64,000 bases of DNA, from NCBI GenBank assembly GCA_013287475.1, contig JABDDT010000001.1, positions 35,339-99,338 on the forward strand. Direction: 5' to 3'. The stretch is from Bacteroidota bacterium. GTDB taxonomy: Bacteria; Bacteroidota; Bacteroidia; Chitinophagales; Chitinophagaceae. Shown here piece after piece: positions 28,539 to 38,575 of the stretch; the first letter of the stretch is position 1; each line of letters opens with the position of its first letter. The position numbers and the translations under genes were made by a program. The notes beneath the pieces were generated by a model. It did no database searches. It was not told the DNA's origin and worked only from the letters and a program-made list of their open reading frames with translations.

Positions 28539-29546
28539 TTATTGTTCTTTCAATACGCGCGGGATTTTTTGTTCCATTAATAACAGATCAGCTAAAACCA
28601 GCGCTGTTACGGCTTCCAGAACAACAGGAACACGAAGTGCGATACATAGATCATGCCTGCCTTTTACTGAAAATAATTCTCTGGTTCCAGTTTCTCTATT
28701 ATAAGTCTCCTGTTCCTTTGGTGTAGATGAAGTGGGTTTTACGGCAATTCTGAATACCAGTTCATTCCCATTGGTAATTCCACCTACAACACCGCCGGCA
28801 TGATTCGTAACAGTTCTTCCTGTTTTATCTGCGATTGCATCATTATGTTGCGATCCAAACATCCTGGCCGCAGCAAATCCGGTTCCAAATTCTATTGCTC
28901 GGATAGCTGGTATTGAGAAAACAGCATGTGAAATCAATGATTCCACACTGTCGAAAAATGGCTCTCCCAGCGAAGCCGGAAGGTTTTTAACCCGACATTC
29001 AAGAATCCCACCTACGGAATCTTTAGCTTCAATGGCTTTTTGAAGCCCTGCTTCGAGATCCTCCAGACCTGCAATTTCTTTTATCTCTGCACGGATCTCT
29101 GTTTGTACAATGTGTAATAATTTTTTAGCAATCACTCCAGCAGCTACCAGGGCAACTGTAAGCCTGCCGCTGAAATGACCGCCACCACGGTAATCTTCAA
29201 AACCCCCGAATTTTTCATGTGCCACAAAATCCGCATGACCTGGTCTTGGTATGGCTCTTAGTTTTTCATAATCACCAGAGCGTGTATTATTATTTTCAAA
29301 CAGTATGGTAATGGGTGCTCCAGTTGTTATATTGTTGAAAATTCCTGTTTTGAAAATTGGCAGATCAGACTCCTGTCTTGGTGTTGTGCCTTTTTGGATC
29401 CCCCCTTTTCTTCTTTCTATATCCGAAATAAAATCTTCCTGAGTTAGTGCCAGACCAGCAGGGCAACCATCCAGGACGAGACCAACTGCCACTCCGTGTG
29501 ATTCACCAAATATGGTCATCCTGAATAATCGTCCAAATGAATTCAT
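28539..29546 (-). CDS. aroC: chorismate synthase
   Basis: MNSFGRLFRMTIFGESHGVAVGLVLDGCPAGL; RPGHADFVAHEKFG; GGGHFSGR. Confidence 0.97.
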   Translation of the reverse strand: MNSFGRLFRMTIFGESHGVAVGLVLDGCPAGLALTQEDFISDIERRKGGIQKGTTPRQESDLPIFKTGIFNNITTGAPITILFENNNTRSGDYEKLRAIPRPGHADFVAHEKFGGFEDYRGGGHFSGRLTVALVAAGVIAKKLLHIVQTEIRAEIKEIAGLEDLEAGLQKAIEAKDSVGGILECRVKNLPASLGEPFFDSVESLISHAVFSIPAIRAIEFGTGFAAARMFGSQHNDAIADKTGRTVTNHAGGVVGGITNGNELVFRIAVKPTSSTPKEQETYNRETGTRELFSVKGRHDLCIALRVPVVLEAVTALVLADLLLMEQKIPRVLKEQ

Positions 29547-29547
29547 A

Positions 29548-30846
29548 CTAAAATATCTTATCTAATATATGAACAGAAACACCGAGACTTGTAAGATCAT
29601 TAAAAAAATCAGGATAGGATTTATTTATGGCATCAGCTTTTTCAATTTGGACCGGTCCTGCAGCCCTTAAAGCGGCAACGGATGTTGCCATAGCTATCCG
29701 GTGATCGTGCCTTGAATGAACTGTAGCGGATTTTAATTCTTCGACCCCCTTTATCCCCATTATATCATCATTGATCAGGATTTCAATTCCCAGTTTACCA
29801 AATTCCTCCTGAAGAGTATGGGCCCGGTCGCTTTCCTTATGTGCAAGCCTGCTAACTCCTCTAATAAAACTGGAACCATGACATACCGAAGCCAGAGCAA
29901 CCAACGGTGGAAAAAGGTCGGGACAATCAGTTGCATCAAAATGGAATGGCTTCAATTTTTTTCGACGGCCGTCACCTATTTGAATTTCATCGTTTCCAAT
30001 TGACATGGAAATACCTGTATCCTGTAATGCCATTAATATCGCTTTATCAGCCTGAGTTGAACCAGAATCCAAACCATGAAACACCGCCGTTCCTGCAATG
30101 GCTGCTGCCACTAAGAGGAAAGCAGTTCCACTCCAATCACCTTCTACACTATATTCTATAGTACCAGTCGGCTTTATCCAGGTTTCGGAAGAAAAATAAA
30201 ATGAATTATAGTTCCGGTTAACAGGAACCTTTAAACTAAAAGCACGCATAACCGATAACGTGAGATCGATGTAAGGCCGGCTTTTCAGATTACTCACTTC
30301 AATGGTAATATTTTTTGCATCAGAAGCTGCATAGGCCATCAAAAGACCTGTAAGAAATTGAGAGCTAAGTGAACCGTCAGTTTGAATATTTGAAGGGACC
30401 AAAGGACCCTTGATTTGAATTGGCAACCTGCCCATATTTGACCAGACTTCTACACCAAGTTTTGGGAAGACTTCATCAAAAAAATCCATTGGTCTGTTTA
30501 GAAGACTTCCTTCTCCTTCAATGGTAATCCTCGTAGGATTTAATGCAACCAATGGTGCAAACATCCGAATGCCGAGTCCGCTTTCGCCACAGTTTACAAA
30601 ATCATTTACAGGTTTTATGCCTCTGCTTTCAATGAGCAGGGAACCATCGGAAAGATTTTCAATATTTGCTCCTAATGCCCGAATAACACGGAGAGCTGCC
30701 AGGTCATCGTTGGAATGACCCGGGTTGAAAATATGGGTTTTTGCCTGGGAAATCAAAGCAGCCGCACAAGCCCTTTGCATGGAACTTTTGGAAGAAGGCG
30801 CCTGAAGGCTTCCTTTTATTTCAGATGGAAAAATAGTAACGTTCAT
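29548..30846 (-). CDS. aroA: 3-phosphoshikimate 1-carboxyvinyltransferase
   Basis: EPSP synthase features: APSSKSSMQRA, SGLGIRMFAPLVAL, HRIAMATSVAAL. Confidence 0.93.
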   Translation of the reverse strand: MNVTIFPSEIKGSLQAPSSKSSMQRACAAALISQAKTHIFNPGHSNDDLAALRVIRALGANIENLSDGSLLIESRGIKPVNDFVNCGESGLGIRMFAPLVALNPTRITIEGEGSLLNRPMDFFDEVFPKLGVEVWSNMGRLPIQIKGPLVPSNIQTDGSLSSQFLTGLLMAYAASDAKNITIEVSNLKSRPYIDLTLSVMRAFSLKVPVNRNYNSFYFSSETWIKPTGTIEYSVEGDWSGTAFLLVAAAIAGTAVFHGLDSGSTQADKAILMALQDTGISMSIGNDEIQIGDGRRKKLKPFHFDATDCPDLFPPLVALASVCHGSSFIRGVSRLAHKESDRAHTLQEEFGKLGIEILINDDIMGIKGVEELKSATVHSRHDHRIAMATSVAALRAAGPVQIEKADAINKSYPDFFNDLTSLGVSVHILDKIF

Positions 30847-30852
30847 TATAAA

Positions 30853-31884
30853 TTATCTGGCGCGGGCAATTGAATAGAGTAATTTTTCCAGGTGAGACAT
30901 GGGGATCGGTTTAATCACTGCTTTACCTAATTTTTCCAGCAATACATAATTCATAATATCCCTTGTCTTTTTTTTATCCATACGCATAATCTCAATTACT
31001 TTCCCGAAATCGACCGGAATATCAATAGGTAACCCATATTGCTGCAACAGTCCCGTTACTCGGGCTGTTTCTTTAAAATTCAGCATTTCTTCAGAAATAA
31101 GACATGCTGCTTTAATTCCAATGGATATTGCATGTCCGTGTGGTAAATGATAAACATTTTCAACTGCATGTCCAAGGGTGTGGCCAAAATTCAAAAGACG
31201 GCGTTCATTCCCTTCAAATTCATCTTGCTTTACGATAGCCGTCTTAATCATTACGTTTTTTCGAATAAGTTCGCTTAACGCTTTTTTATTTTTTCTGTAA
31301 CTGTGAATGGAATTTTTTTCGAGTTCATGAAATAACGAAGCATCTTTAATTGCAGCATGTTTGATAACTTCTGCATATCCGTTTACCCATTCCTCCACAG
31401 GGAGGGATTGTAAAAGTGACACATCATAAAATAGGAATCCCGGCTGGCGTATCACCCCGATCATATTTTTATAATTGCCAATATCTATTCCATTTTTACC
31501 GCCAATGGACGCATCCACCATTCCAAGAATAGAAGTAGGTACAAATCCAAAAGGAACGCCGCGCATATAAATAGAAGCGACATAACCTGTAATATCGGTT
31601 ACTACACCTCCTCCTACTCCTATGATGGTTGTCTGCCGGTCTGCACCAAAGCTTATAAGCTGGTCAATAATCTGATCAACAATGTATTGAACCTTGAATG
31701 ACTCCCCTGCAGGAATCTGGATGAATTTTAATCCCTTAAAATACTTTTTGTGATGATCGTAAATATGCTGGTCTGTTATAAAAATAGACCTGTCTTTCTC
31801 TACAAGGTTACCAATATTCGCAAAAGATGCATCAAAATAGCAGGTAGTTCTGGAAGCAGAAAATGAAAAAGTCTTTTTCAGCAT
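30853..31884 (-). CDS. aroB: 3-dehydroquinate synthase
   Basis: GVGGGVVTDITGYVASIYMRGVPFGFVPTSILGMVDASIGGKNGID; LNFGHTLGHAVE. Confidence 0.97.
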   Translation of the reverse strand: MLKKTFSFSASRTTCYFDASFANIGNLVEKDRSIFITDQHIYDHHKKYFKGLKFIQIPAGESFKVQYIVDQIIDQLISFGADRQTTIIGVGGGVVTDITGYVASIYMRGVPFGFVPTSILGMVDASIGGKNGIDIGNYKNMIGVIRQPGFLFYDVSLLQSLPVEEWVNGYAEVIKHAAIKDASLFHELEKNSIHSYRKNKKALSELIRKNVMIKTAIVKQDEFEGNERRLLNFGHTLGHAVENVYHLPHGHAISIGIKAACLISEEMLNFKETARVTGLLQQYGLPIDIPVDFGKVIEIMRMDKKKTRDIMNYVLLEKLGKAVIKPIPMSHLEKLLYSIARAR

Positions 31885-31899
31885 ACAATGATATATTAC

Positions 31900-32985
31900 T
31901 TAAGAATTCATCACTTTATTCTGGTGATTAATACTTTCCATGTGTACTGCGTCAAAATATTTTGTAATGAATTCCTGGCTTAGACCAAGTTTATCTCCTT
32001 TCCTGAAGGCTCTTTCCAGGATAGCGTTCCAGCGGTTTGTTTGCAGGATCGTAATATTATTATCCTTTTTATATTGTCCGATTTTTTCAGAAATCTTCAT
32101 CCTTTCACTGATGATCTGCATAAGTTCGTCATCGAGCTGGTTAATCTGCTGTCTTAATTTTTCAAGAGCCGCATGATATTCTTCTGAAGCCACATCCTCA
32201 TTACGCCAGCGTATACTGCTGACCAGTTCGCCGAGTTTGGCAGGTGTGATTTGTTGTTTGGCGTCGCTCCATGCTTTATCGGGATCGATATGACTTTCGA
32301 TAATCAGTCCGTCGAAATCCAGGTCTATCGCTGTTTGGGCAACTTCCTGAAGAATATCCCGGCGTCCGCATATATGGGATGGATCATTTATGAATAACAT
32401 TCCCGGATGACGTCGTTTCATTTCAATTGCCAGATGCCACATGGGTGCATTTCGGTATTCTGTGTTTCCGTAAGAGCTAAAACCCCTGTGAATGAGACCT
32501 ATTTGTTTTATGCCGGCTTTGGAAACACGCTCAACAGCACCAATCCAAAGTTCAAGATCGGGATTGATTGGATTCTTGATAAGCACCGGAACATCAACTC
32601 CTCTCAGGGCGTCTGCAACATCCTGTACGCTAAAAGGATTTACTGTGGTTCTGGCACCGATCCAAAGTACATCCACGTCAAAATGCAGAGCGTCTTCGAC
32701 CTGTTTGGCCGTGGCAACTTCCACAGCTACAGGAATACCCGTGATGTCCCGGGCCTTTTGCAGCCAGGCCAGTCCTTTGGTTCCTATACCTTCAAAACTT
32801 CCAGGACGGGTTCTGGGTTTCCATATGCCTGCACGCATAATATCTACTTTGCCGGTTTCCTGCAACTGTACAGCTGTTTGGATTACCTGCACTTCCGTTT
32901 CTGCACTGCAGGGACCTGAAATAATCAGCGGACGCTTTGCCCACGCTGCCTGGGTTATTTCTTTCATTGATTTTGATGCTACCAT
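31900..32985 (-). CDS. bifunctional DAHP synthase / chorismate mutase
   Basis: DAHPS class I: SGPCSAETEVQVIQTA, GIWKPRTRPGSFEGIGTKGL; C-terminal CM: LEKLRQQINQLDDELMQIISERMKISEKIGQYK. Confidence 0.95.
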   Translation of the reverse strand: MVASKSMKEITQAAWAKRPLIISGPCSAETEVQVIQTAVQLQETGKVDIMRAGIWKPRTRPGSFEGIGTKGLAWLQKARDITGIPVAVEVATAKQVEDALHFDVDVLWIGARTTVNPFSVQDVADALRGVDVPVLIKNPINPDLELWIGAVERVSKAGIKQIGLIHRGFSSYGNTEYRNAPMWHLAIEMKRRHPGMLFINDPSHICGRRDILQEVAQTAIDLDFDGLIIESHIDPDKAWSDAKQQITPAKLGELVSSIRWRNEDVASEEYHAALEKLRQQINQLDDELMQIISERMKISEKIGQYKKDNNITILQTNRWNAILERAFRKGDKLGLSQEFITKYFDAVHMESINHQNKVMNS

Positions 32986-33027: not shown

Positions 33028-34692
33028 CTATCTTGTATTCGCATCATTCATACGAATCCTTCTCCCCTTGTAATTCTTGCCATCTATAGCTCTGATCATC
33101 TGGGGAGCCGATTTTCTGTCAATCTCGATCCAGCTGTTCATTTCCTTCATATCAATTTTCCCCAACACGTCTTTTCTCAGGTCGCTCATATCCAATACAA
33201 ACTGAAGAAAGCTGGCTTTATAGAAACCATCCTTAGTTCCAAGATTCACAAATAATTTTACAAAATCACCGTTTCCGGGAGAAAATGAGGGGCGCGGTGA
33301 TCTGACTGCTCCAATAGGTATACGTTCTCTTGGTCCGCGTGAAGGTGCCTCTCTTTCTCTTTGTACACGCACATTCAGGTCTTCCGCATTTTCATAATAT
33401 TTTAGAAATCGCGTAAATTCCTGAGCTGCTACTCTTTTCAATACATCCTCTTTGCTCACATCTGCAAATTTTTCTTCCATCATGGGAACATATGATTCAT
33501 AGTCCCCGTGACTGATATCTGCATTCAGTAATTTATCCATAAAATGAAAAAACTGCTTGCGACAAACATCTTTTCCGGTCGGTACTTCCACTTTATGAAA
33601 AGGTACTTGTACAATGCGTTCTATCTGACGGAGTTTTCCGATTTCTCTTGAATGGATAATCGACAAACAAACTCCAGTATTTCCAGCCCTTCCTGTCCTA
33701 CCACTTCTGTGGGTGTAGATTTCCACATCATCCGGCAACTCATAATTAATAACATGGGTAATTCCCTGCACGTCAATTCCGCGGGCCGCTACATCTGTAG
33801 CAATGAGCAGCTGCAATGATTTCTCCCTGAATTCGCCCATAACTTTATCCCGTTGCTGCTGGGTCAGATCACCATGCAATGCATCGATATCGTATCCTTC
33901 CCGTGTAAGTTTTTCAGAAATATTTTGCGCATCTGCTTTGGTGCGCGTAAAAATAATTCCGTAAATACCCGGGTTAAAATCAATCAATCGTTTTAGCGCT
34001 TCATAACGATGATGCGCATTTGTGACAAAAAACTGGTGATCTATATTTTTGTTGGCTGTATTCTTGGTACCAACAGTTATTTCCATTGGATCCTTCATAT
34101 ACTTTCGGCTTACCCTTTTAATTTCAGCAGGCATTGTTGCACTAAATAACCAGGTAGCATCCCGTTTGGGCGTATTCTGAAGAATAAATTCGATATCATC
34201 CTGAAATCCCATATTCAGCATTTCATCTGCTTCATCAAGCACCACATATTTTATCTCTTCCAGATTGATGGCTTTCCTTTCGATCAGGTCAATGAGCCTG
34301 CCTGGTGTTGCAACGACAATTTGAACACCCCTTCTTAAATCCCGGATCTGCATACCAATTGAAGCACCGCCATATACAGCCAAAACCTGAACAGCAGCCA
34401 TATATTTTTTGAAAAGTTCCAGTTCACTTACAATCTGCATACAGAGTTCTCTTGTCGGACAAACAATAAGTGCCTGGGGAAATCTTTGTTCAGCTTTCAA
34501 TAGTTGCAACAATGGCAGCCCAAAAGCTGCAGTTTTACCGGTTCCGGTTTGTGCAAGACCGACCAGGTCCTTGGTGCCACTCAATAAAACCGGAATTGCT
34601 TTTTCCTGTATGGGGGTGGGTTGGGTATACCCTAAAGAGGTTATAGCCTTCAGAAGGTTCTCCTGTAACCCAAGCCCTTCAAATGTACTCAT
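33028..34692 (-). CDS. DEAD/DEAH-box RNA helicase (DeaD/CsdA-like)
   Basis: AQTGTGKTAAF, VLDEADEMLNMGF, FSATMP, HRSGRTGRAG; C-terminal DbpA-like RNA-binding region. Confidence 0.95.
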   Translation of the reverse strand: MSTFEGLGLQENLLKAITSLGYTQPTPIQEKAIPVLLSGTKDLVGLAQTGTGKTAAFGLPLLQLLKAEQRFPQALIVCPTRELCMQIVSELELFKKYMAAVQVLAVYGGASIGMQIRDLRRGVQIVVATPGRLIDLIERKAINLEEIKYVVLDEADEMLNMGFQDDIEFILQNTPKRDATWLFSATMPAEIKRVSRKYMKDPMEITVGTKNTANKNIDHQFFVTNAHHRYEALKRLIDFNPGIYGIIFTRTKADAQNISEKLTREGYDIDALHGDLTQQQRDKVMGEFREKSLQLLIATDVAARGIDVQGITHVINYELPDDVEIYTHRSGRTGRAGNTGVCLSIIHSREIGKLRQIERIVQVPFHKVEVPTGKDVCRKQFFHFMDKLLNADISHGDYESYVPMMEEKFADVSKEDVLKRVAAQEFTRFLKYYENAEDLNVRVQREREAPSRGPRERIPIGAVRSPRPSFSPGNGDFVKLFVNLGTKDGFYKASFLQFVLDMSDLRKDVLGKIDMKEMNSWIEIDRKSAPQMIRAIDGKNYKGRRIRMNDANTR

Positions 34693-34814: not shown

Positions 34815-35663
34815 TCATTTTAAAATTCTCCGGATTTTATTTGCATTTTCCATCAGTTGAAGTAAGTAATCATAGTTTTCCTTTTCGAGGCAACTTTTGA
34901 ATTTACGTAACTGTGTTATATGTTCATTTAAAACATCCAATACATTATCGCGATTTTGCATAAAAATAGGTCCCCACATAGCCGGGCTACTTTTCGCCAG
35001 CCTGACCGTACTTTCAAAACCACCACCTGCAAGTTCAAAAATAGCATCCTCTTCTTTTTCTTTTTCCAAGACAGTATTGGCCAGCGCAAAGGAAGTGATA
35101 TGGGAAATATGACTCACATAGGCTGCATGAACATCATGACTTTCCGCTTCCATATTCACAAGGGACATTCCCAAAATGGTATAAATATTTTCAATCAGCG
35201 CCAGGGCTTCCGGGTCAGATTTTTCTCTTTCACAGATCACACAGGAACGGCCCTTAAATGCATCGTGAACAGCTGCTTCAGGGCCACTATATTCAGTTCC
35301 CCACATCGGATGAGTTGCAACAAACCGATTTCTGTTAGGATGATCGGATACGAATTTGCAAAGGGCATATTTAGTTGATCCGGCATCAGCCACAATTTGC
35401 TTTGAAGTAACAAGGTCCAGGATAGTCTTCATTACAGGCAGTGTTACATCAACCGGAATAGCTACATATATTAAATCACTTTGTTTAACTGCCTCCTCCA
35501 ATGGTAATACTTCGTCAATGATTCCAAGTTCCAGCGCTTTGAGGGCCGAAGTGCCGCTTCGGCTCACCCCAATAACCTTTTTGACCATGGCATGATCTTT
35601 CAAACCGAGACTAAAAGATCCGCCGATCAAACCAACCCCAACTACAGTGACCGTATTAAACAT
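34815..35663 (-). CDS. tyrA: prephenate dehydrogenase
   Basis: VGVGLIGGSFSLGLKD; THPMWGTEYSGPEAA; overlaps upstream aminotransferase by 8 nt. Confidence 0.92.
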   Translation of the reverse strand: MFNTVTVVGVGLIGGSFSLGLKDHAMVKKVIGVSRSGTSALKALELGIIDEVLPLEEAVKQSDLIYVAIPVDVTLPVMKTILDLVTSKQIVADAGSTKYALCKFVSDHPNRNRFVATHPMWGTEYSGPEAAVHDAFKGRSCVICEREKSDPEALALIENIYTILGMSLVNMEAESHDVHAAYVSHISHITSFALANTVLEKEKEEDAIFELAGGGFESTVRLAKSSPAMWGPIFMQNRDNVLDVLNEHITQLRKFKSCLEKENYDYLLQLMENANKIRRILK

Positions 35664-36849
35664 GTTGAATTGGTTTTATAAATCCAGCTTTTTTTATTCT
35701 TTCCAAACTTTCAAGAATTTTTTCTTCTGGAGCACATAGACTTACCCTGATATACTTGTTACCGGCAGTCCCAAAAATGCCGCCCGGTGTTACAAATACA
35801 TTGGCATTATATAATAAAAGATCGCTCAGTGAATACCCATCAGCAATTCCATCGGGGACTTTTGCCCAAACAAAAAGTCCCCCCTGTTTTTTAGAAAACC
35901 GGCACCCCAATCCTTCAAGTAATGTTTCCACAGCTGATTTTCGAATACGGTATAATTTATTTACTTCTTCATACCAGGATGCTGGGAGAGACAAGGCTTT
36001 TGCTGCTGCAAGTTGCAGGGGAAGAAACATTCCACTGTCCATATTACTTTTAAACCGAAGTACATTTTCGATATGCTTTGATTTGGCTATCATCATACCA
36101 ACGCGCCATCCGGCCATATTGTGCGATTTACTGAGTGAGTTAAGTTCAATAACGTAATCGCAGACTCCTTCGGACTGCAATATGCTCATAGGTTCATCAT
36201 TTAGAATAAAACTATAAGGATTATCATGAACGAGCAGGACATGATTCTCTTTTGCAAATGAAAGCAATTCTTCAAAAAGATCTTTTGTTGGCATTTGTCC
36301 CGTTGGCATTTGCGGATAATTCACAAACATCAATACTGATTCCTGGCTAGTCTGTTTTTTCATGACCAATTGCTTCAATTCTTTGAAATCAGGCAACCAG
36401 TTATTCTCTTCCTTTAATTCATAAGCAACCAGATTGGCACCGGCCAGTTTTGCGGCACTCTGGTAAGTTGGATAACCCGGATTGGGAATTAATACAAGGT
36501 CCCCTTTATCCACATAAGTCATACAAATATGCATAATCCCCTCTTTGGATCCCGCCAGCGGGAGAATTTCCAGATCAGGATTTAGGTTTACATCATACCA
36601 TTCCTTGTACCAACCTGCCATCGCCTTTCTCAAAATAGGTGACCCTCTATAACTTTGATATGCATGGGTATTTGGTTTATTGCTCTCTTCATTCAATATT
36701 CTGATCACATCAGGATGAGGAGCCTGGTCAGGGCTGCCGATGCCAAGGCTTATAATATTTTTACCTTCCCTGTTGAGATCGTCTATCTCCCGTAATTTTT
36801 TAGAAAAATAGTACTCCCCAATTCCCTCGAGTCTTTGTGCTGTCCTCAT
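35656..36849 (-). CDS. PLP-dependent class I/II aminotransferase (probable aromatic/aspartate aminotransferase)
   Basis: NPGYPTYQSAAKLAGA, NSLSKSHNMAGWRVG; position between pheA and tyrA. Confidence 0.92.
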   Translation of the reverse strand: MRTAQRLEGIGEYYFSKKLREIDDLNREGKNIISLGIGSPDQAPHPDVIRILNEESNKPNTHAYQSYRGSPILRKAMAGWYKEWYDVNLNPDLEILPLAGSKEGIMHICMTYVDKGDLVLIPNPGYPTYQSAAKLAGANLVAYELKEENNWLPDFKELKQLVMKKQTSQESVLMFVNYPQMPTGQMPTKDLFEELLSFAKENHVLLVHDNPYSFILNDEPMSILQSEGVCDYVIELNSLSKSHNMAGWRVGMMIAKSKHIENVLRFKSNMDSGMFLPLQLAAAKALSLPASWYEEVNKLYRIRKSAVETLLEGLGCRFSKKQGGLFVWAKVPDGIADGYSLSDLLLYNANVFVTPGGIFGTAGNKYIRVSLCAPEEKILESLERIKKAGFIKPIQHV

Positions 36850-36947: not shown

Positions 36948-37787
36948 TTATGTCTGTATTCCTTTTTTGTAAATTCCATAAATTTTTAAATCAGATATTG
37001 CAGGTTTAATAATCTCGATCACATTTTCAAATTCGTTCGTATTTTCAAATTCCATATCAGCATGAAAACTATATTTCCAGTCACTGCCGGGTATCGGATA
37101 GGATTGCAATTTGCTCAGGTTAATACCAGCATTCGCAATGAGAGTAAGCACTTTTGCGAGGCTTCCACGTGAATGATCAGTATGAAAAGTAACAGAAGCT
37201 TTATTTGCATCTTTTACAGGTTCTGAATTTTCTTTACGTTGTAATACTAAAAATCTTGTATAGTTATTTTTCATGGTATGAATATCGGGGGCGATCATCT
37301 CCAATTGAAATAAACTGGCTGCCAGGTTACTGGCGATGCCAGCGATATGCTTGCTTTTACGCTGATGAATATGTTTTGCACTCAGGGCAGTATCTTCCGT
37401 TTCAATCAGTTTCCAATCGAATTGGTTTAGATAATCCAGACATTGCAGTATGGCCATCGGATGGGAATGTACTTCCTTTATGTCTTTAAGTGTTATGCCC
37501 GGATTCACTACCAGATTCTGTCGGATCTGCAAATAAATTTCACCCGAAATCACCAGGTCACTATTCCGAAGCAGTGAATAGTTGGGAAGAATGCTACCTG
37601 CAATGGAATTTTCTATAGCCATTACCGCAGCATCACAAAGGCTTGGATCAGTTACTGATTTCACTACTTCCTGGAAGCGGGCACATGCCAGAATATTGGT
37701 CTTTTCGCCAAAAAAAATTCTGACTGCTTCCTGATGAAAACTTCCTTCATATCCCTGAATGGCTACACGTTGAATAGGTTGCTGCAT
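36948..37787 (-). CDS. pheA: prephenate dehydratase
   Basis: IQGYEGSFHQEAVRIFF, ENSIAGSILPNYSLL, ACT domain GSLAKVLTLIANAGINLSKLQSYPIPG. Confidence 0.95.
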   Translation of the reverse strand: MQQPIQRVAIQGYEGSFHQEAVRIFFGEKTNILACARFQEVVKSVTDPSLCDAAVMAIENSIAGSILPNYSLLRNSDLVISGEIYLQIRQNLVVNPGITLKDIKEVHSHPMAILQCLDYLNQFDWKLIETEDTALSAKHIHQRKSKHIAGIASNLAASLFQLEMIAPDIHTMKNNYTRFLVLQRKENSEPVKDANKASVTFHTDHSRGSLAKVLTLIANAGINLSKLQSYPIPGSDWKYSFHADMEFENTNEFENVIEIIKPAISDLKIYGIYKKGIQT

Positions 37788-37791
37788 ATGA

Positions 37792-37821
37792 TAAAAAAAA
37801 ATCCCGGCTTTTGACCGGGAT
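37792..37821 (-). terminator. attenuator terminator upstream of pheA
   Basis: Minus strand ATCCCGG-TCAAAAG-CCGGGATTTTTTTT: 7-bp GC-rich stem, 7-nt loop, U8-9 tract ending about 5 nt before pheA ATG. Confidence 0.9.
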
Positions 37822-37842
37822 TCTATTGTTAAGTTCTAAAAA

Positions 37843-37935
37843 TTACCTGTTGATTAACAAAAGCATGCCCGGTTTGCTTCTAAAGTAGAAGAAAAAATAA
37901 AAACCAAAATAACGGTATGCTTTTCTGTTGACCAT
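37843..37935 (-). CDS. Phe/Tyr-rich attenuation leader peptide (30 aa)
   Basis: ATG-initiated ORF MVNRKAYRYFGFYFFFYFRSKPGMLLLINR*; 10 of 12 consecutive residues are Phe/Tyr; lies between a TTTG-N16-TATTTTTG promoter and the terminator hairpin. Confidence 0.88.
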   Translation of the reverse strand: MVNRKAYRYFGFYFFFYFRSKPGMLLLINR

Positions 37936-37944
37936 ATATCTCTT

Positions 37945-37972
37945 CAAAAATAAATCATTCCAGTGATACAAA
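37945..37972 (-). promoter_or_regulatory. predicted Bacteroidota promoter for aromatic amino-acid operon leader
   Basis: Minus strand TTTG (37972-37969), 16-nt spacer, TATTTTTG (37952-37945); leader ATG begins at 37935. Confidence 0.65.
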
Positions 37973-37999
37973 AAATTTATTTTCAGGGCCTGGATGGTA

Positions 38000-38575
38000 T
38001 TATAAGTTGTTTAATCTTTTCTCCTGCAAGGAACTTACCAGTTTAAAAAGATGAAAGGGCTTATAAATTCTCCAGTCAGGCTGCTCTATGAGACTGATGT
38101 AACGATCCAGTTTGGCCCTGCGAAAATCATACTGGGTCGGTTCTGGCATATTAATGCAGACAACCCAACCTTGCCTGTCTTCCACGTCTTCTCTCCATTC
38201 TTCATAATAATCTTTATCGCCGCTATGGAAATTCAGTACGTTTTCTGCGATTAGAATAAATTTAAAAATTCCTTCTGCCATGAATTTATCAGCTACTTCT
38301 CTTTTGAGGCTCATTATATCATTTTCAATTGCGTCATTCCATTCACCGATCAGTTCAATAATTACATATTTTTCTTCATAATCGGCTAATAACACTTTTA
38401 AATAAAGCGTTCGTGAGCCAAATTCATCCCATTGAGGATGAATTAAATAATTATAGATCGCCTGAGTAAATTCAAATTCTGAATAAATACGTCCGAAGAA
38501 GGGTGAACGTTCGTCTTCCTCACTAATATAAATGTGTCGCCAGTTATAATATGGTTCAATATCATGCATATTCAA
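38000..38575 (-). CDS. conserved hypothetical protein
   Basis: 191-aa ORF with no strong overlapping competitor; acidic globular composition. Confidence 0.7.
   Translation of the reverse strand: MNMHDIEPYYNWRHIYISEEDERSPFFGRIYSEFEFTQAIYNYLIHPQWDEFGSRTLYLKVLLADYEEKYVIIELIGEWNDAIENDIMSLKREVADKFMAEGIFKFILIAENVLNFHSGDKDYYEEWREDVEDRQGWVVCINMPEPTQYDFRRAKLDRYISLIEQPDWRIYKPFHLFKLVSSLQEKRLNNL

Follow-up and report, generated by a model that had tools for sequence, protein, structure and literature searches.

Results

Organization of the pheA locus

The DNA analysed here, referred to as the window, is a stretch of 64,000 nucleotides from a 74%-complete genome of Chitinophagaceae type. Its minus strand carries an operon-like run of genes in the order pheA, PLP aminotransferase, tyrA, DEAD-box RNA helicase, DAHP synthase/chorismate mutase, aroB, aroA and aroC (Table 1), which covers nearly all steps of the pathway, beginning with the first committed one and ending in Phe and Tyr. 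A gap of 122 bases is found 5' of the helicase gene, and the single transcript suggested by the arrangement is putative. The first-pass annotation of this DNA had named pheA, the aminotransferase and tyrA as the controlled genes. All three were recovered, and the run extends past tyrA to the helicase and the genes from DAHP synthase/chorismate mutase to aroC.

Table 1. Features of the attenuator region and the genes around it, in window coordinates.
Feature	Position	Strand	Details
Hypothetical gene	38000-38575	-	5' of the promoter
Promoter, Bacteroidota sigma-A type, predicted	37945..37972	-	TTTG 37972-37969, N16, TATTTTTG 37952-37945
Leader peptide ORF	37843..37935	-	MVNRKAYRYFGFYFFFYFRSKPGMLLLINR, then stop (37845-37843); 30 codons; 6 Phe, 4 Tyr
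Segment 1	37912..37930	-	CAACAGAAAAGCATACCGT; partner of segment 2, duplex -13.0 kcal/mol
Segment 2	37854..37873	-	ACCGGGCATGCTTTTGTTAA; within leader ORF, common to 1:2 and 2:3
Segment 3	37814..37832	-	TTAACAATAGAATCCCGGT; inner antiterminator arm and terminator 5' arm
1:2 core pairing	37924-37917 with 37866-37859	-	AAAAGCAT with ATGCTTTT
2:3 outer pairing	37873-37868 with 37819-37814	-	ACCGGG with CCCGGT
2:3 inner helix	37860-37854 with 37832-37826	-	TTGTTAA with TTAACAA
Intrinsic terminator (3:4)	37793..37821	-	ATCCCGG-TCAAAAG-CCGGGAT-T8
pheA, prephenate dehydratase	36948..37787	-	First structural gene, ATG at 37787; NCBIfam PRK11898, E 7.8e-55, under model cut-off
PLP aminotransferase	35656..36849	-	NCBIfam aminotransferase families
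tyrA, prephenate dehydrogenase	34815..35663	-	NCBIfam PRK08507, over cut-off
DEAD-box RNA helicase	33028..34692	-	Between tyrA and DAHP synthase; NCBIfam CshA-like, E 1.7e-143, under model cut-off
DAHP synthase/chorismate mutase, aroB, aroA, aroC	28539..32985	-	NCBIfam; same orientation

The aminotransferase gene comes after pheA in nearly all loci of the family. The helicase gene is also linked to the operon in the family (L002-L081): it directly follows tyrA in about 40 loci, the window among them, and in about 16 others it sits just 5' of the leader in the same orientation.

A promoter, a leader ORF, pairing segments and a terminator had been placed upstream of pheA by the first-pass annotation, and direct reading of the minus strand located all of them at the proposed positions. 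A short ORF rich in codons for the product amino acids thus precedes pheA and tyrA, an intrinsic terminator sits between this ORF and the first structural gene, and the antiterminator uses the 5' arm of the terminator and competes with a 1:2 helix.

The leader open reading frame

Ten of the 12 residues in the leader block YRYFGFYFFFYF are aromatic, as read directly from the minus strand and as originally claimed. This is far above chance: when the region upstream was shuffled 1,000 times with dinucleotides preserved, no ORF exceeded 7 aromatic residues in 12. The leader RNA folds with a z of -3.3 relative to shuffles.

A PheA scan of genome contigs gave 80 relatives, mostly labelled Chitinophagaceae. 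One was excluded because its contig starts too close to pheA, and the other 79 together with the window form the 80 upstream regions scanned. An ORF with at least 7 aromatic residues in 12 was present in 79 of the 80, the window included, and a script detected a hairpin-plus-T terminator in 77 of those 79 leaders. Conservation of the aromatic run, which had been put forward as a check, was thus observed in the family and, as described below, in 14 families of the class. Residues on either side of the aromatic block are conserved as well (KAYR ... RPGMLLL), because the pairing segments are encoded there, and deviant leaders (e.g. ANT...RVVFAK in L032) preserve the pairing with different bases (GCAAATACA with TGTATTTGC).

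In the aromatic block most C bases occupy the third codon position and most A bases the second, and Phe and Tyr codons are retained while their last base varies between T and C. This base bias is as would be expected of kept Phe (TTT/TTC) and Tyr (TAT/TAC) codons, rather than of a mere U-rich tract. The third-position freedom, which is expected of translated sequence, also bears on the idea that a factor acting in trans, either an RNA-binding protein or an uncharged tRNA in T-box fashion, binds the leader RNA while the peptide is not read. RNA-binding regulators of Bacteroidota are poorly known, which leaves some room for such a factor. However, nothing in the window matched Rfam at the gathering threshold, T-box riboswitches included, and a permissive Rfam search of the leader gave no T-box match either. 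We give this explanation hardly any weight.

The leaders contain on average 5.7 Phe and 3.8 Tyr. The excess of Phe would suit an attenuator that senses one amino acid, mostly Phe, with the Tyr codons as tolerated neighbours. This would be a sub-case of the attenuator reading set out below and does not exclude it, but both residues are kept in leaders across families and the controlled genes produce both amino acids, and we consider sensing of a single amino acid rather unlikely.

Three helices compete and covary

The antiterminator had been described as the 6-bp pairing ACCGGG:CCCGGT. This pairing is present, but the extent was too short: together with the inner TTGTTAA:TTAACAA helix the antiterminator has 13 bp.

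Covariation in the three stems had likewise been suggested as a check, and all of them covary in a plain MAFFT alignment of 77 leaders. The 1:2 helix was 78% paired with both-side changes at 7 of 8 pairs, the 2:3 helix 86% with changes at 9 of 13, and the 3:4 helix 98% with changes at 7 of 9. Leaders of the ANT type, such as L032, are one column off in segment 2 of this alignment, and the helix counts there are therefore conservative. For all three helices both the percentage paired and the covariation score exceeded those of column shuffles and of partners slid by 1 to 3 columns. At one inner 2:3 pair, for instance, A-T occurs in 21 leaders, G-C in 20 and A-A in 4, while A-C and G-T do not occur.

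Arms from the same genome were also compared with arms exchanged between dissimilar genomes, a test that is independent of any single alignment. Within the family the cognate arms paired more strongly for 1:2 (p=6e-9), 2:3 (p=5e-13) and 3:4 (p=3e-14), although shared ancestry is partly left in both these and the covariation statistics. The 23 leaders of other families gave p=3e-5 for 2:3, and their cognate 3:4 arms also paired more strongly than swapped ones. For 1:2 in these leaders the cognate arms were initially no better (p=0.8), because segment 1 had been cut too short; with a lengthened segment 1 the test gave p=1e-5, a value that is partly post hoc since the lengthening followed inspection of the sequences. 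A tree-based test of independent compensatory changes was underpowered, as well-supported branches offered only 1 to 5 independent changes per pair, a number too small to reach significance.

These data also bear on another explanation, in which the terminator merely ends the hypothetical gene upstream and a U-rich tract incidentally gives rise to the aromatic ORF. That gene, for which an NCBIfam search gave no match, shares the strand of the element and stops 28 nt short of the promoter, and the local intergenic DNA is A+T-rich. A plain terminator, however, has no need of covarying 1:2 and 2:3 helices. Furthermore, such ORFs are absent from the shuffles, and leader, frame and pairing segments are kept in 79 of 80 leaders and outside the family. 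The explanation is in our view extremely improbable.

Proposed mechanism

From the comparative sequence evidence we consider it highly probable (roughly 0.9) that the element attenuates transcription by a ribosome-coupled mechanism in response to Phe and Tyr supply. The aromatic run, the competing helices and the gene association all support this reading, which the first-pass annotation had already offered. We infer that the leader is translated, that ribosomes stall in it, that transcription terminates there in vivo and that Phe and Tyr are each sensed.

RNA polymerase would start about 5 nt before the leader ATG, with a ribosome trailing behind. When Phe-tRNA or Tyr-tRNA is short, the ribosome would stall within the aromatic block, a run of 12 codons immediately 3' of segment 1. 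This would leave segment 2 free to pair with segment 3 through both the outer and the inner 2:3 helices, which would take away the 5' arm of the terminator and let the polymerase proceed into pheA and the genes behind it. With ample supply the ribosome would reach the leader stop codon and cover the inner antiterminator arm, so that 3:4 could form and transcription would end before pheA. In an untranslated leader, segment 2 could be tied up in the 1:2 helix, which would likewise permit 3:4.

Folding with a ribosome mask points in the right direction, although the account is incomplete. When the mask places the ribosome early in the block, 2:3 is predicted to form (P 0.97) as long as segment 4 has not yet been transcribed. 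A ribosome positioned at the leader stop abolishes the inner 2:3 helix and leaves only the outer pairs, after which the terminator prevails. A ribosome at a late position in the block (P-site codon 17) fails to release segment 2 cleanly in the model. At equilibrium the full leader prefers the terminator in every case, and read-through must therefore be kinetic, decided by timing. In pre-terminator RNA without a ribosome 2:3 wins in the model, and the basal, translation-free level is thus uncertain.

In the window 5 nt separate the end of the T tract from the pheA ATG, which places the hairpin across the ribosome landing region. The leader could accordingly be imagined to act on translation of pheA, by sequestering its start site or through re-initiation of ribosomes, and not on termination. 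Sequestering requires a fixed spacing, yet the distance from hairpin to pheA varies from 0 to about 150 nt in the family, with hairpin and U tract kept. Control of translation is thus improbable, and we retain transcription attenuation as the working model.

A predicted nearly leaderless start

A very short 5' UTR had been predicted for the leader transcript, and a promoter-proximal leader start proved to be general in the family. The predicted transcription start of the window is at about 37940, some 5 nt 5' of the leader ATG. Among the family leaders, 77 of 79 have a promoter motif within 60 nt of the leader start, with a median of 7 nt from the end of the box to the start and at most 9 nt in 66 of the 77. 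In comparison, the spacing for longer ORFs of the same loci peaks at 15-19 nt (18/40) and is below 10 nt in 6 of 40. Given that the TAnnTTTG box of F. psychrophilum is placed at -12 to -5 in its transcriptome report (PMC9723704), the predicted 5' UTR is near 3 nt in the family (5 in the window). For reference, leaderless mRNAs make up 5.5% in the same report, and 3.7% of the 5' UTRs of B. thetaiotaomicron are below 10 nt (PMC7366714). The spacing from box to leader is longer in most other families; the nearly leaderless start is therefore a Chitinophagaceae trait and not a requirement.

Distribution in the phylum

A class sample of 149 genomes contained 40 with a PheA match at the sensitivity used, and 38 upstream regions were taken. 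A clear aromatic leader was found at 23 of these pheA loci, from 14 families, and two further regions (L091 and L099) contain likely leaders. The families with no element directly 5' of pheA include f13, f24, f25, f26, f54 and f16. In family f49 the leader was present at all 22 PheA matches, from 21 genomes.

A covariance model built from the 77 family leaders matched 44 of 61 family genomes, with possible overlap with the training set for some of them, and in a set of 200 genomes from across the phylum it matched 41. Nineteen match loci were inspected: 16 lie just 5' of pheA and 3 just 5' of DAHP synthase, and every one has an aromatic leader. The association with these genes rests on the 19 loci, as the rest of the phylum matches are mostly weak. 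Two f17 genomes without a pheA-proximal element have a match about 3.5 kb further upstream, and locus inspection revealed that in one of them (G124, locus L162) the distant element heads DAHP synthase. Attenuators of the same kind head DAHP synthase instead of pheA at L164 and L165 as well.

Tandem attenuators, with two aromatic leader ORFs in series 5' of pheA, were seen in f49 (L120, L121, L122, L125 and L135/L141), f2 (L095) and f36 (L116). A terminator after each leader was found by script in L121, L122 and L135/L141, and by eye in L095, L086/L125 and L116. Two adjoining weak covariance matches in G184 (C53, 333546-333691 and 333709-333842; E 0.002 and 0.009) are perhaps another tandem. 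The window has a single attenuator only.

Tentatively, and with odds that we put slightly below even, these elements may constitute a phylum-wide Bacteroidota RNA family, distinct from the enterobacterial Phe_leader, that co-senses Phe and Tyr and has pheA or DAHP synthase as its target according to how the operon is arranged, being nearly leaderless in Chitinophagaceae and forming a tandem two-step gate in some other lineages. Such a family, if real, would imply that transcription and translation are tightly coupled in Bacteroidota, where Shine-Dalgarno sites are hardly used.

Relation to known attenuators

The pheA and trp attenuators of Escherichia coli are the classical ribosome-coupled cases, the former with a leader rich in Phe alone, and in the trp, his and thr leaders a stalled ribosome selects antiterminator or terminator. 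The window element shares with E. coli pheA (pheL; RF01859) an aromatic leader peptide, three competing helices and an intrinsic terminator before pheA, but its leader is rich in both Phe and Tyr, its segment 2 lies inside the leader ORF, there is almost no 5' UTR and the promoter is of another type. Compared with trp, his and thr the stalling choice is the same, whereas the amino acids differ and no sequence relation was seen. RF01859 (Phe_leader) was the best Rfam family for this element in a permissive search and aligned end to end; its 28 bits fall short of the gathering score, which is 55, and by Rfam's own rule the element is not a member.

Leader-peptide attenuation is documented mainly in Proteobacteria and Actinobacteria, and the authors of a 2010 survey were aware of no example in other groups prior to the Firmicutes cases that they added (PMC2965389). 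The 2021 transcriptome of F. psychrophilum gave clues to such attenuation before amino-acid operons, and a structured 5' element before pheA, conserved within Flavobacteriaceae, was reported there as having no Rfam match (PMC9723704). This element precedes the same gene in the same phylum as ours; the main-text section of that report mentions pheA without leader sequence, helices or covariation, and its families do not extend beyond Flavobacteriaceae. A serial arrangement of two attenuators with short ORFs, resembling that of some relatives here, is described for Salmonella mgtCBR (PMC3641672), which responds to other signals and differs from the single attenuator of the window.

The mechanism is thus long known, and the finding extends the printed F. 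psychrophilum hint. New with respect to the openly accessible literature are the leader, the three covarying helices, the range in the phylum, the nearly leaderless start in Chitinophagaceae and the tandem forms. A covarying, phylum-wide Bacteroidota example would give annotators an RNA family missing from Rfam and explain the likely regulation of aromatic genes in many species, and it offers a reporter for how closely ribosomes trail RNA polymerase in Bacteroidota.

Other amino-acid leaders

HisG and IlvD were looked for and not found in the 74%-complete genome of the window. The same genome has a Thr/Ile-rich leader, MNHPASHITHIPFITRISGGIISITRTTL, 5' of thrA (L145; contig C5, minus strand, about 786-697), and similar Thr-rich leaders were observed in many family genomes (L166-L181). 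They mostly have no obvious U-tract terminator, and four of the loci gave no Rfam match at E 0.05. Often they end in a hairpin, ACAACCC-GTTAA-GGGTTGT, followed by a recurring CATATCA...GGGC...GCTG stretch.
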